DNA of 64,000 nucleotides from a virus: IMG/VR virus record IMGVR_UViG_3300039191_000223, positions 1-64,000 of that record; one strand, given 5' to 3'. The translations under genes were made by a program, and so were the position numbers. Under the pieces are notes generated by a model. That model did not search any database. It was not told the origin of the DNA and saw nothing but the letters and a program-made list of their open reading frames with translations. This document shows, piece by piece, positions 42,542-48,143 of the stretch (its first letter is position 1; the number at the start of each line of letters is the position of its first letter).

Positions 42542-43084
42542 TTACGCCGCTTCCTTGGTTACTTCTTCGTTCGTCAGCAATAACATACGCGATGCGTATA
42601 AATGGAGCGACGCTAGCGTTTCAATTGTAATACCAAAAGGTTCTATGAATTTTGATAACTTCATGCGATCCCTATTGATAAACCATAACTGGTGTTCATT
42701 GACTTGCTTATTGCTAGTATCATGATCTACCAAAAACTTGGCTTCATTAATTCTCAAATACAACTTTTCCTTCGCACTCGTAAAGCCGTCCTTACGATTA
42801 GTGGGTGACGGTTTAAATGTCACAGACAAATCTTTACCAGCCAAGAGACAGAAGAGCAACTGCTGACTTGCGTCTAAGTGGCAGGTCTTTGCGGTGTGCT
42901 TCTGGGGGCGCATAGCCTTGTCGATAGGACACCATGTTCTAATCTCAGTCTCTTCGTAAGTTGGCCTGTGCTTACCACTGTTGATGTAGTCTGCCCAAGC
43001 TTTGCGAAATGCCTCCACCAAAACCCAAAATAGCACCAAAAAACTCACCCATAGTAATTCTCCTTTGTCAGTTGCTAAGAGCAT
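42542..43084 (-). CDS. Membrane-anchored hypothetical protein
   Basis: A single N-terminal membrane helix (LLWVSFLVLFWVLVEAF) precedes 150 soluble residues with Cys/His (IRTWCPIDKAMRPQKHTAKT CH), possibly a metal site. Its start overlaps the end of a broken small gene (ATGCTCTTAG). No family recognised. Confidence 0.6.
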   Translation of the reverse strand: MLLATDKGELLWVSFLVLFWVLVEAFRKAWADYINSGKHRPTYEETEIRTWCPIDKAMRPQKHTAKTCHLDASQQLLFCLLAGKDLSVTFKPSPTNRKDGFTSAKEKLYLRINEAKFLVDHDTSNKQVNEHQLWFINRDRMKLSKFIEPFGITIETLASLHLYASRMLLLTNEEVTKEAA

Positions 43085-43628: not shown

Positions 43629-43947
43629 TTACATTTTTATTTTTTTAGGCTTTGAGATTTGAAAAGTGCTAGGCCCTGAACAAGTTTCGTATTGTTCTTC
43701 TGTTCCACCAAACATATTTATTGCTTCCACAATAAAATAACCATCATCCGTTTTTGCCCATCATTAACCAAAAATCTTCGCCTTCTCTAAACTTAACAGC
43801 ATAATCAGTCTGGACTGATTCTGCCATTGCGTAATCGTAGATAGTACCATCATTCACAAGCCCTTGTAGGATCATGAGTCCTTTTTCTACTTCCTCAAAT
43901 ATAATTGCGTCTCTCACTGCGTCAAATTTTTCAGGTATTATTTTCAT
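43629..43947 (-). pseudogene. Hypothetical protein gene with one extra A
   Basis: The frame from 43947 (MKIIPEKFDAVRDAIIFEE) stops at 43744 after FWLMMGKNG. Dropping one A from GGCAAAAACGG lets it run on as TDDGYFIVEAINMFGGTEEQ, with a basic end (SKPKKIKM) at 43629. The repaired product is about 105 aa. Its start overlaps the release-factor stop (ATGA). Family unknown; whether the indel is real needs read data. Confidence 0.5.
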
Positions 43948-44621
43948 AATAGATTCATTCCACCTTTCATTATTTTTGTTGCTTTCGCAGTCTTACCTGT
44001 TTGATGGTCAATTACTTGATCATCCTGAAAGCGATATGTTCTTATTTTGTCACCACGCATACCAGAGCCCCGTTGTTCCCTAGTTATTTGTGATGTTTGT
44101 TTAGACTGGTCATTATATAACATTTCGCTAATCTGTGTCAATAGACTTTGCTTGGCCTCAGCATAATTGTTTTTACGGTTCCTACCTTGACGAGCTTCAC
44201 AAAGTCCAGTGGGCGTGTGGGTGAGGCGACAAGAGTTCTGCTTTTTATTTCTATGTTGCCCACCTTTACCGGTTCCTGAAAACCACTCAACGTGGAAGTC
44301 TTTATCATCGAGGGATAGATAAGCATCGTTTACTGATAACTGATTGGGGTCAACAACGGATACTGTAACCGTAGAAGTGTGGACTCTACCACGTTTCTCA
44401 GTTGGAGGGATTCGTTGTATTCTGTGCCCACCGGCTTCATTATCAAGGCCACGTAGGTCTTTACCAGTGATGTCGAGTTGTGTAAAGCTTGGATGAACTT
44501 TAACGTCACACTTTCAACCGTAGGTAGTTGATAGGCGGGAGTATGCTTCAGCTAGATCGTTGACAAATAGTTTGGAATCGTTACCACCCTCTGCCGGGTG
44601 AATTTCTAGAATGCGTTTCAT
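43944..44621 (-). CDS. RF1-type peptide release factor with in-frame TGA
   Basis: One continuous frame from ATG 44621 to TGA 43944, interrupted only by TGA at 44516-44514 (codon 36). Start EIHPAEGGNDSKLFVNDL is the RF domain-2 entry; HRIQRIPPTEKRGRVHTS is the decoding region with a PxT-type tripeptide (RF1-like, UAA/UAG); GTGKGGQHRNKKQNS holds the GGQ catalytic loop; QRGSGMRGDKIRTY is the C-terminal RF block. RF domain 1 is absent, so it is short (about 225 aa). The TGA follows Tyr-Gly and precedes Lys, where RFs often have Trp (GWK). RBS GAGGAAAG and GATAAATAAC late-like box upstream. Confidence 0.8.
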
Positions 44622-44644
44622 TTTACTTTCCTCTAGTATTAATG

Positions 44645-44945: not shown

Positions 44946-45275
44946 ATGACATATCATATCACACAGAAAGAACTCAAGCAACTACTAAATCAGCTTAAAG
45001 AAAGTGCTAAAAAAAGAAATATAGAGTTCAATCTCACAACTGCGGATATAGACGAAATAGGAATCCCTATTACTTGTCCAGTGTTGGGGTTTCCTCTGAA
45101 GTTTCATCGAGGTCATCCACAGCACGATTCAATAAGCTTTGACAGACTGGATTCGTCACAAGGATATACGAAGGATAACCTTGTGATTGTATCGTTTCGT
45201 GCAAATCAGCTAAAATCAAATGCAACTCTAAGTGAAATGAAGTCATTGGTATCCTTTTACGAAAGTATATTATGA
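44946..45275 (+). CDS. HNH-type endonuclease-like protein
   Basis: The C-terminal half HPQHDSISFDRLDSSQGYTK then DNLVIVSFRANQLKSNAT is the pattern of phage HNH/endonuclease VII-like homing proteins (SxDRID...GYT..NV.V.S..AN). The first Cys-containing part is TCPVLGFPLKFHRG. Only one Cys-x2-like pair is seen. It is on the + strand inside a minus-strand operon, as expected of a mobile homing endonuclease gene. Confidence 0.7.
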   Translation: MTYHITQKELKQLLNQLKESAKKRNIEFNLTTADIDEIGIPITCPVLGFPLKFHRGHPQHDSISFDRLDSSQGYTKDNLVIVSFRANQLKSNATLSEMKSLVSFYESIL

Positions 45276-45576: not shown

Positions 45577-46764
45577 CTACTGGTACTCAGTAGCATCGCC
45601 CTTACGAGTCAAGTATGCAGCACTGACACTCTTGAGAATCACACGACCAATCTCATTGTCTCGACGCTCAATCGCGGTTCTGATCACAATACCCTCACGG
45701 ATATGCGCCTCTTTTCCTGACAGCGTTTCCTTACCATCGGTGTATTCCTGCATCACCTCTACCGAAAACGGACCACTGTAAAGAACAGGCATGTACTCAA
45801 CCGCATAGCCACCGTATTTAATCTCGTCACCAATGCCATCGTCCGATTCATGGAGTCTATTCTCAAACCATTCTAGGGCATCAAGTACTTCATCGGAGTT
45901 AAGGTAACGGCCCGTCTCACCATTGCCATTAGGATTGCCCACGTAAATGTCAAACACCCTAAACACCGGTTCCGTAGAGCCATAGTGCAAATCCTGCACA
46001 CCTTTACCGAAAATCTCACCAAGAACAAAGATGCTATCGGTATCCAGTAGGTGAGTAAGCTCATCGACAAGAGCTTGACCAACGTCATTGAACATCTTCA
46101 CATACAGGTTGGAAGCATTCATCGGGTTAAGCTTAAATGCTAGACCCTGCTTGCCAAGACCTTTCGAGTTCACAATGTAAGTCTGGTCATAGATGCCCAT
46201 GGACACAAAGGTCCCGTGCGCCTTCTCCGTGAAGATAACTTCCTCCCCATCCTGAATCACATCCGGGTTGTTTTTCCAATTCTCAATATCGAATCGGAGA
46301 GTCTTGCCACTAGCATTCCAAACCTGCCCTGCCATATGCACCGGAATCGGCGGCTCGTACTTTACGATGCGAAGGTAGTGAGTTACAACAGCACCTTCAG
46401 GCACATAAAGATCAGTAGGACCCTCATCAGGATCGATGAAATGCATGTCATACCATTCGGAGCCATCAGTCGTCTCGCACTTCTTCAAGGGGTAAATCAG
46501 ACCTTGAGACAGCACACCGCGAAGCTTGATAGCCTTCACACGGTCACTGTTTTTACCAGCAAGCCTACCTTCCAGCCCAAGCTCTTTAACAAGCCACTGG
46601 GGCAACACAGCCTGTTCAGGAATATAAACGGCAAGGTCGCCCGTCTGGAACTGTCCCTTACGCACGATAGAACGATATCCACCAACGACAGCGAGTTCGA
46701 GAGCATCAGCATTCGGATGCTCTTCGATGGTTAGTCTAACTACTTTGACGTTAAATTCTGACAT
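45577..46764 (-). CDS. RNA ligase of the Deinococcus Rnl5 type
   Basis: The N-terminal OB-like domain (VRLTIEEHPNADALELAVVG, GDLAVYIPEQAVLPQWL) followed by a nucleotidyltransferase domain (FTEKAHGTFVSMGI, motif I with catalytic Lys; FVLGEIFGKGVQDL, motif III-like; REGIVIRT, motif IV; RVILKSVS, motif V) is the arrangement of DraRnl/Rnl5, which seals 3'-OH/5'-P RNA nicks. 395 aa. The operon continues with guanylate kinase and another ligase. Confidence 0.85.
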   Translation of the reverse strand: MSEFNVKVVRLTIEEHPNADALELAVVGGYRSIVRKGQFQTGDLAVYIPEQAVLPQWLVKELGLEGRLAGKNSDRVKAIKLRGVLSQGLIYPLKKCETTDGSEWYDMHFIDPDEGPTDLYVPEGAVVTHYLRIVKYEPPIPVHMAGQVWNASGKTLRFDIENWKNNPDVIQDGEEVIFTEKAHGTFVSMGIYDQTYIVNSKGLGKQGLAFKLNPMNASNLYVKMFNDVGQALVDELTHLLDTDSIFVLGEIFGKGVQDLHYGSTEPVFRVFDIYVGNPNGNGETGRYLNSDEVLDALEWFENRLHESDDGIGDEIKYGGYAVEYMPVLYSGPFSVEVMQEYTDGKETLSGKEAHIREGIVIRTAIERRDNEIGRVILKSVSAAYLTRKGDATEYQ

Positions 46765-46815: not shown

Positions 46816-47451
46816 TCAAGCATTAATGGTGTCAAGAACTTCCAATACATCACTAAGGGCTTCTGTCTCATCACCATGCATAAACCGATTAAAATAAAGA
46901 TTATCCTCTAGCGTTCGTCCTTGCAAATATTGGTCAACCCAGCCACTTTCAACTTCAATAATGGTAGTCATGCGGCCTGCGTATTCTGTCATAAGATCAC
47001 AGTAATCATCCATGTCACCGTTACCCAAGAGCCGACGATAGTCTTCAGTGAACCTTTCAAGGAAACGCTGAGCCTGCAATTCGGTAGGGCAATCGATGAA
47101 CATATTGACGACCGTCCACCCCTTTTCCGTGGCATTGCGATTTATTTGAAACATACCATTAGGATCAACTACAATCACTGGCACCAAACCACTATCAAAC
47201 TTATCTTCAAATTCAGCGACACTGCCACCATACGAGTTTCCATTGAATGTAACCGTCTCCAACATTTCAATTTCGTCAAACTCGTTGGGAGTCACAAAAT
47301 GGTAGTTCTCCCCGTCAACTTCCCCTACACGCTTTATTCGAGTTGTGGTCGAGACAATTTCAGTAAACTTACCAGTGTCTACCATCAATTTGGTTAAGGT
47401 AGATTTTCCTGAACACGTTGGGCCGGTAATCGTAAAAATTATCTTATTCAT
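46816..47451 (-). CDS. Guanylate kinase-like enzyme
   Basis: P-loop FTITGPTCSGKSTLTKLM, then VSTTTRIKRVGEVDGENYHF, the GMP-binding signature of guanylate kinases, and MFIDCPTELQAQRFLERF (lid region). 211 aa, normal size. It phosphorylates GMP/dGMP for nucleotide supply. It lies between two RNA-ligase genes. Confidence 0.85.
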   Translation of the reverse strand: MNKIIFTITGPTCSGKSTLTKLMVDTGKFTEIVSTTTRIKRVGEVDGENYHFVTPNEFDEIEMLETVTFNGNSYGGSVAEFEDKFDSGLVPVIVVDPNGMFQINRNATEKGWTVVNMFIDCPTELQAQRFLERFTEDYRRLLGNGDMDDYCDLMTEYAGRMTTIIEVESGWVDQYLQGRTLEDNLYFNRFMHGDETEALSDVLEVLDTINA

Positions 47452-47477: not shown

Positions 47478-48143
47478 TCAATTTCGTTGAAGGCGCAACA
47501 TATTTCGCTCGCCCCCAGACCACATCCAATGCTGGTCAGTCTGTACATGGCCTTTACGCACAAACTTAGCTATACTTTGTTGGAAGTCCTTAAGTTGAAA
47601 GCTTCCAGCTGGACGAATAACGTAGCCCTCAACAGTCTTTTGCATATCATCAGTATACAAAGCCTTGATCGCTTCCTCATCATACACGCCACGATAAAGA
47701 ACCGGCACATGATCCATATGATACTGCTCACCTGTTTTGATATGCCACTGTGTATTATTGCAGCGCTCAACGGTATCATCCCACGACAATGCAGTGTCAC
47801 CTTCCCACCACGAAAAGGCAAGAAAATAAGATGGTAATTGCGTGTAGATAATAGAATGCACAGCGAACATATTTTCACCACAGATTCGTTCATCATCTTT
47901 CAGTTTGAAGGAGACAGAACCCCACAGGTTTTTGACCCATTCACGAGACCAGTGGTATCCACTATTGACAGATCGAGCATGGATATGATCCCGATACATG
48001 GTGGTGCACTCCCCATCCATTTTCTCGGTAACAACAACTTCCATGCCCGCAAAGGCTGTAGTCGTATCGAGAATGATATCGTCTTCATCTGCACCCGGAG
48101 ACCAAGGCAAATGTGGGGTGCGGGGATATTTAACATACGTCAT
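47478..48143 (-). CDS. RNA ligase-family nucleotidyltransferase
   Basis: Motif I EVVVTEKMDGECTTMYRD (catalytic Lys in KMDGE), motif Ia IHARSVNSG, motif III-like CGENMFAVHSIIY, motif IV EGYVIRPAG, motif V-like SIAKFVRKGHVQTDQHWM. 221 aa. The HLPWSPG opening is typical of a phage RNA ligase group seen beside tRNA genes. It overlaps the next gene upstream by 4 bp. Confidence 0.85.
   Translation of the reverse strand: MTYVKYPRTPHLPWSPGADEDDIILDTTTAFAGMEVVVTEKMDGECTTMYRDHIHARSVNSGYHWSREWVKNLWGSVSFKLKDDERICGENMFAVHSIIYTQLPSYFLAFSWWEGDTALSWDDTVERCNNTQWHIKTGEQYHMDHVPVLYRGVYDEEAIKALYTDDMQKTVEGYVIRPAGSFQLKDFQQSIAKFVRKGHVQTDQHWMWSGGERNMLRLQRN

Follow-up and report, generated by a model that had tools for sequence, protein, structure and literature searches.

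How can a full-length release factor be produced from a viral gene whose reading frame is interrupted by a stop codon? This question is raised by a gene in a 64,000-nt stretch of viral DNA (positions 1 to 64,000 of IMG/VR record IMGVR_UViG_3300039191_000223), the whole of which is referred to here as the window. The gene lies on the minus strand at 43944–44621, an assignment based on its frame, Pfam matches, solved relatives and fold; it begins with an ATG at 44621 and ends with a TGA at 43946–43944. Retranslation of these 226 codons agreed with a first-pass annotation, made without database searches, that the frame is open except for one TGA at 44514–44516. This sole internal stop, which we call the lock, is codon 36. 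Without recoding, the gene is predicted to give a 35-residue peptide as its only product. No ATG, GTG or TTG is present between the TGA and codon 161, so internal restart downstream of the TGA cannot yield a product containing the decoding and GGQ motifs, and this route was ruled out. We propose, as the probable explanation, that the UGA is read through, most likely as Trp, and that this would tie synthesis of the factor to weak termination in a self-regulating manner.

The first-pass annotation had assigned both flanks of the TGA to a class-I release factor, and profile searches bore this out. Residues 4–31 of the predicted protein match positions 103–130 of the Pfam PCRF profile, and the part following the TGA matches PCRF positions 165–194 and then the RF-1 domain, which is the correct order; the LFVNDL, PPT, HTS and GGQ motifs are all present. 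The 35 codons 5′ of the lock (44517–44621) encode the first strand and helix of domain 2, as judged from the frame, Pfam and AlphaFold, and the post-lock part (43947–44513) encodes the remainder of domain 2, the decoding loop and the GGQ domain. The decoding motif, PPT, is of the RF1-like PxT type and is found at 44400–44408 within QRIPPTEKRGRVHTS, while the peptide-release motif GGQ is at 44256–44264. The readthrough product would be a 225-aa protein containing RF1 domains 2–4. Domain 1 is indeed missing from the window gene, as noted earlier, but this is not a local loss, as every member of the family described below begins at domain 2. An AlphaFold model of the readthrough product with Trp at codon 36 had a pLDDT of 92.4 and placed the lock between the domain 2 helix and the following strand. 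The top PDB matches of this model in Foldseek were ribosome-bound RF1, and the best solved relatives of the protein were also RF1. The post-lock part scored 140.3 and 134.7 bits against the prfA equivalogs (cut-offs of 400 and 423.25), values that are somewhat lowered by the truncated query. The prfB score was lower than the RF1 score (88.9 bits, with 370 required) and the motif is PPT rather than SPF, while the PrfH score was 36.7 bits against a cut-off of 166.65. Family scores, motif and domain content thus ruled out prfB, standard prfA and PrfH, and the phage family formed a clade separate from cellular RF1 in our tree. As judged from its sequence, the window gene is an intact, translationally locked, RF1-like class-I release factor gene without domain 1.

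The lock lies in the context GGT TGA AAG, and the reading frame, family conservation and a cellular control place it at a codon homologous to a conserved Trp codon. We examined this position in the window clade, defined as the 52 genes left after clustering at 85%. TGA was found at the exact lock codon in 51 of the 52 genes and TGG in none, and relatives at about 45–58% protein identity retained the TGA. Among 73 cellular RF1 genes, the same codon was TGG in 64, as expected from the earlier suggestion of a Trp site, a Phe, Tyr or Leu codon in seven, and TGA in two, the latter from records labelled Mycoplasma testudinis and Mycoplasmataceae. TGA encodes Trp in the Mycoplasma code. The contrast between TGG in cellular genes and TGA in the clade argues that Trp is the residue wanted at this position and shows that TGA is retained by selection. 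Genes with in-frame locks freely use TGG elsewhere, with 120 TGG codons compared to 58 TGA. The TGA is also identical in two further assemblies of the window phage, L001 (99.95% identity over 12.6 kb) and L002 (99.7–99.8%), making a base-calling error very unlikely.

To determine how many relatives are locked, IMG/VR was searched with the post-TGA part alone as the query, to keep the TGA from influencing which genes were found. The relatives obtained in this way are interrupted, by a stop or a change of frame, at or close to the lock position. The set was then widened with two broader scans, published huge-phage genomes and bacterial genomes, and lock classes were assigned with HMM (hidden Markov model) anchors, as regex-based classification had missed divergent members. 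This yielded 163 distinct relatives, most of them from jumbo phages, of which 157 carry an obligatory recoding site. The largest classes were a single in-frame TGA (78 relatives) and a +1 shift at CTT TGA (55 relatives), followed by a +1 shift at CTT TAG as the sole lock (15 relatives). The remaining locks were two in-frame TGA codons in three relatives, TGA plus TAG, both in frame, in two, a CTT TAG shift downstream of an in-frame TGA in two (L003 and L018), a CTT TAA shift in one and a single in-frame TAG in one. When clustered at 60% identity, 50 of 56 lineages were locked. Parsimony on a tree with many weakly supported branches suggested at least 12 exchanges of TGA and TAG at the stop of the shift site and at least five changes in the type of lock. 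The 29 large records inspected, which reach 735 kb, have exactly one RF-1-domain gene apiece, the member of this family. In myxobacterial and related genomes (L215–L219 and L222, from G023–G028) the locked, domain-1-less gene stands beside other release-factor genes; in the myxobacterial genomes, among them that of the isolate Minicystis rosea, these other genes are full-length.

Three further observations were made during this survey. G026 has two locked release-factor copies about 3 kb apart. L038, which lacks the usual lock, is interrupted in frame by a stop near its C-terminus (VMKG*FDLIN). Four records filed as phage (L207, L209, L211 and L212, the last being CAKLQH020000004.1) contain an ordinary cellular prfA, which in L212 adjoins hemK; these records are thus probably bacterial DNA.

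Inspection of the lock sites revealed distinct contexts for readthrough and shifting. Of the 79 readthrough genes that carry one lock, 73 have a Gly codon directly before the stop; the base after the stop is most often A (57), otherwise C (14) or G (eight), and never T. The window lock has both favoured features, the Gly codon GGT before the stop and an A after it. An A after UGA favours misreading by tRNA-Trp, and a U after a stop lowers readthrough (PMC5289835). The 73 shift genes, in comparison, resemble the prfB frameshift motif, which consists of a Shine-Dalgarno (SD)-like run, a CTT slip codon and a stop (PMC12421855). CTT directly precedes the stop in 73 of 73, although this figure is partly by choice, since our classification script favoured CTT wherever several bypass sites were possible; in aligned codon tables free of this preference, L003 and L018 were the sole shift members without CTT at their first stop. 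An SD-like purine run occurs just upstream of the shift site in 63 of the 73, and a C follows the stop in 50. The shift-site stop is TGA in 55, TAG in 17 (including L003 and L018) and TAA in one. Across 8,164 genomes, prfB uses TGA at this site in 98.6%, TAA in 1.4% and TAG in none (PMC12421855). TAA is read by both host factors, and its scarcity fits a lock that depends on a single factor. The window gene itself has no prfB-type shift site, its lock being in frame at GGT TGA.

The RNA segment 3′ of the lock is constrained within the clade. Over the first five codons past the TGA, the 52 clade genes used the same codon for the same amino acid 2.2–2.7 times as often as expected, and this ratio was elevated over about 17 codons, compared with about 1.0–1.2 across most of the gene; further local peaks were found near the gene start and at codons +26 to +33. 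Folding of 78-nt segments was strongest at +6 nt, with a mean z of −2.4 compared with a background of about −0.5, where z-scores were calculated from shuffles that preserved the protein and codon usage. A hairpin beginning 8 nt past the TGA, which had been picked from single-sequence folds, covaried in 39 sequences (0.265, compared to a shuffled mean of 0.174 and 0.188 for the best slid version).

Our model for this regulation is as follows. Ribosomes would begin at the ATG, which is preceded by the ribosome-binding-like sequence AGAGGAAAG (44626–44634), and would meet the UGA at codon 36. If termination at UGA were efficient, only the 35-residue peptide would be made. Conversely, if termination were slow or weak, a near-cognate tRNA, probably tRNA-Trp, would read the UGA and the full 225-residue factor would result; the factor would then raise termination capacity and the lock would shut again. 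In relatives with UAG or UAA locks, direct feedback by an RF1-like factor is possible. For a UGA lock, the loop would be direct if the factor reads UGA; otherwise it would be indirect, with the factor taking UAA and thereby freeing host RF2 for UGA. Comparison among relatives shows the lock, its conservation, its equivalence with prfB-type sites, standard use of TGA elsewhere in the phages and the constrained RNA segment of the clade. We infer that Trp is the residue inserted, that release-factor activity is sensed and that feedback occurs.

The tRNA genes of these phages were also inspected. The window phage has neighbouring tRNA-Trp(CCA) genes, one at 65,356–65,427 of G000 (L042:1356–1427, minus strand) and the other at L042:1164–1238; a similar pair is present in L056. 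In the second of the two genes the anticodon stem is only 4 bp long and the acceptor stem is poor. The canonical tRNA-Trp of the window phage has, as read by eye, the ordinary G at the position altered in the Hirsh-type (G24A) tRNA, so a suppressor of that type was discarded. Amber-reading (CTA) tRNAs occur in clade phages at 84,842–84,917 of G000 (L043:842–917, minus strand), at L307:14867–14942, and in L055 and L083, and phages carrying them still use TAG as an ordinary, rare stop. G014 contains an adjacent pair of TCA (UGA-reading) tRNAs (L318:19122–19296) about 9 kb from its CTT-TGA-locked release-factor gene.

Several alternative explanations were considered. One stop in an otherwise open frame superficially resembles a nonsense mutation, a pseudogene or a sequencing error, and a nonsense mutation had been offered as an equal alternative in the first-pass annotation. 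We regard this explanation as essentially discounted, since the TGA is shared by three assemblies and, when sought in related phage genes, by all but one member of the clade, while in all of them the downstream frame is open and encodes a conserved protein. It is also very improbable that UGA encodes an amino acid throughout these phages, in a manner similar to code 4, or selenocysteine at the lock, even though some phages reassign stops and bacterial selenocysteine sites likewise have a hairpin after the UGA. TGA ends 33 of the 92 open reading frames (ORFs) of the window phage and, in G002, 124 of 315; no coding signal was detected past TGA-ended ORFs in three phages, and the terminase match lacked an in-frame stop in 20 of 20 phage records. 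TGA is thus an ordinary stop elsewhere in these phages, and genome-wide reassignment was ruled out. Selenocysteine was not supported either, as cellular homologues have Trp rather than Cys at this position and a search of the phages for SelB returned nothing at the cut-off, with zero matches in the searched large-phage records of the window clade.

Two further alternatives concern what would open the lock. A UGA-reading tRNA encoded by the phage and made during infection could unlock the gene at a set time, rather than a shortage of release factor. A tRNA-Trp with a 4-bp anticodon stem, like the second gene of the window phage, reads UGA in E. coli (PMC13092985), and the TCA tRNAs of G014 and the CTA tRNAs of several relatives also speak for this reading. 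However, the 4-bp-stem tRNA may be inactive given its acceptor stem, TCA tRNAs are uncommon (the flanks of 162 relatives held a single weak case), and 73 relatives are locked by a +1 shift, which a suppressor tRNA would not promote; we consider this explanation improbable. Less easily set aside, although still unlikely, is a fixed dose limiter, in which a leaky stop would pass a constant small fraction of ribosomes and keep a factor that is harmful in excess scarce, sensing nothing. The leaky UGA context together with the structured element of the clade could set such a level without a signal, and unregulated overproduction of release factor is toxic in B. subtilis (PMC12421855). Against this, the shift-type relatives carry the prfB signal, whose rate depends on release-factor supply, the near absence of TAA noted above fits dependence on one factor, and a weak ribosome-binding site would achieve the same limit more simply.

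Returning to the self-regulating lock, a number of points weigh against it. An identical sequence signature would be expected if the lock set a fixed dose or were opened by a phage tRNA. The RF1-like decoding motif implies that a UGA lock is not simple self-feedback, unless the specificity of the factor is broader than the motif suggests. Six of the 163 relatives have no lock of any kind. RNAalifold found no consensus structure in the 39 sequences, and the window's own post-TGA segment has no significant hairpin (z 0.49), so the RNA element is a property of the clade and is not demonstrated for the window. The same recognition-loop motifs were found with TGA and TAG locks, and this absence of correlation with stop type means that the motifs give no signal of codon specificity. 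The earlier proposal of regulation by UGA readthrough, made by analogy with RF2, is strongly favoured over a nonsense mutation by the conserved TGA and by the prfB-type sites of relatives, but its view of the lock as a gauge of RF2 does not extend simply to the family, since about one quarter of the shift-type relatives use UAG; within that proposal, low RF2 is a presumed signal and UAA and UAG are presumed to be the stops read by the product. The conserved lock is well supported by comparative sequence data; sensing and codon specificity are inferred. We also entertain, tentatively and with doubts that outweigh our confidence, a broader idea: huge phages and some myxobacterial chromosomes may share a termination-failure sensor, in which an accessory release factor is made only upon failure of termination at its own internal stop, with the stop type (UGA, UAG or, rarely, UAA) and the means of bypass (readthrough, a +1 shift or the two combined) repeatedly exchanged. 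Such a factor may recognize each of the three stops, or may act to rescue ribosomes blocked in termination, for example by a host defence.

Inspection of the gene neighbourhood revealed no partner gene, RtcB or other, shared by the family; the commonest neighbour occurs in 24 of about 140 loci, and a link to a fixed partner was rejected. In the window, two RNA ligase genes (45577–46764 and 47478–48143, minus strand) and a guanylate-kinase-like gene (46816–47451) lie upstream of the release-factor gene, an arrangement that is not common to the family. A putative HNH-endonuclease-like ORF, identified by reading the sequence, is on the opposite strand just upstream (44946–45275, plus strand). Downstream, at about 43,008–43,013, the near-identical L002 has about 710 extra bases, perhaps a mobile insert.

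Bacterial RF2 and Mimivirus-type eRF1 are release factors known to be controlled by recoding, and programmed frameshifting has been reported absent from prfA (PMC12421855). A search of the open-access literature, with subscription papers and preprints outside its scope, found no account of locked phage release factors. What is new here is a domain-1-less, RF1-like branch that is found in jumbo phages and is locked by readthrough sites, by frameshift sites or by two locks at once; standard ORF calling returns just fragments of these genes. This family makes it possible to test why release factors so often fall under the control of their own substrate, how a huge phage benefits from a release factor, and what can be learned about codon specificity from the stop that is used.

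Among the systems already described, prfB autoregulation is similar in that a stop inside a release-factor gene must be bypassed, and the shift-type relatives share with it the SD-like run, 3-nt spacer, CTT, stop and, often, C. They differ from it in using TAG (17 of 73, compared with none of the 8,164 prfB genes). In contrast to prfB, the window lock would be read through in frame and lies inside domain 2 rather than before domain 1, and its protein resembles RF1, with PPT in place of SPF, and has no domain 1. Ordinary prfA is the best family match and shares the PxT motif and RF1 fold, but has domain 1, is unlocked and belongs to a separate clade. PrfH (RFH) is a class-I release factor that also lacks domain 1 (PMC1586002); the window protein differs from it in its PPT motif, its low PrfH score and the absence of an RtcB-type partner common to the family. 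Large phages carry release factors and suppressor tRNAs and can read stops as sense codons (PMC7162821, PMC13037316), whereas recoding here is limited to one gene and TGA is otherwise a stop. The closest parallel to L003 and L018 is the class-I release factor of Mimivirus, in which a CUU UAG C shift lies after a UGA readthrough site and which was shown to be expressed in that way (PMC3521657). Mimivirus R726 and Megavirus mg280 have the UGA readthrough before a CUU-stop-C +1 shift (PMC3521657). The two phage relatives have the in-frame TGA and CTT TAG in this order, while the window has the readthrough lock alone. R726 and mg280 are eRF1 proteins of the eukaryotic and archaeal type from amoebal viruses, whereas the phage family is related to bacterial RF1; a termination-failure sensor in the latter would, if real, be the bacterial-virus parallel to the Mimivirus eRF1 double lock.
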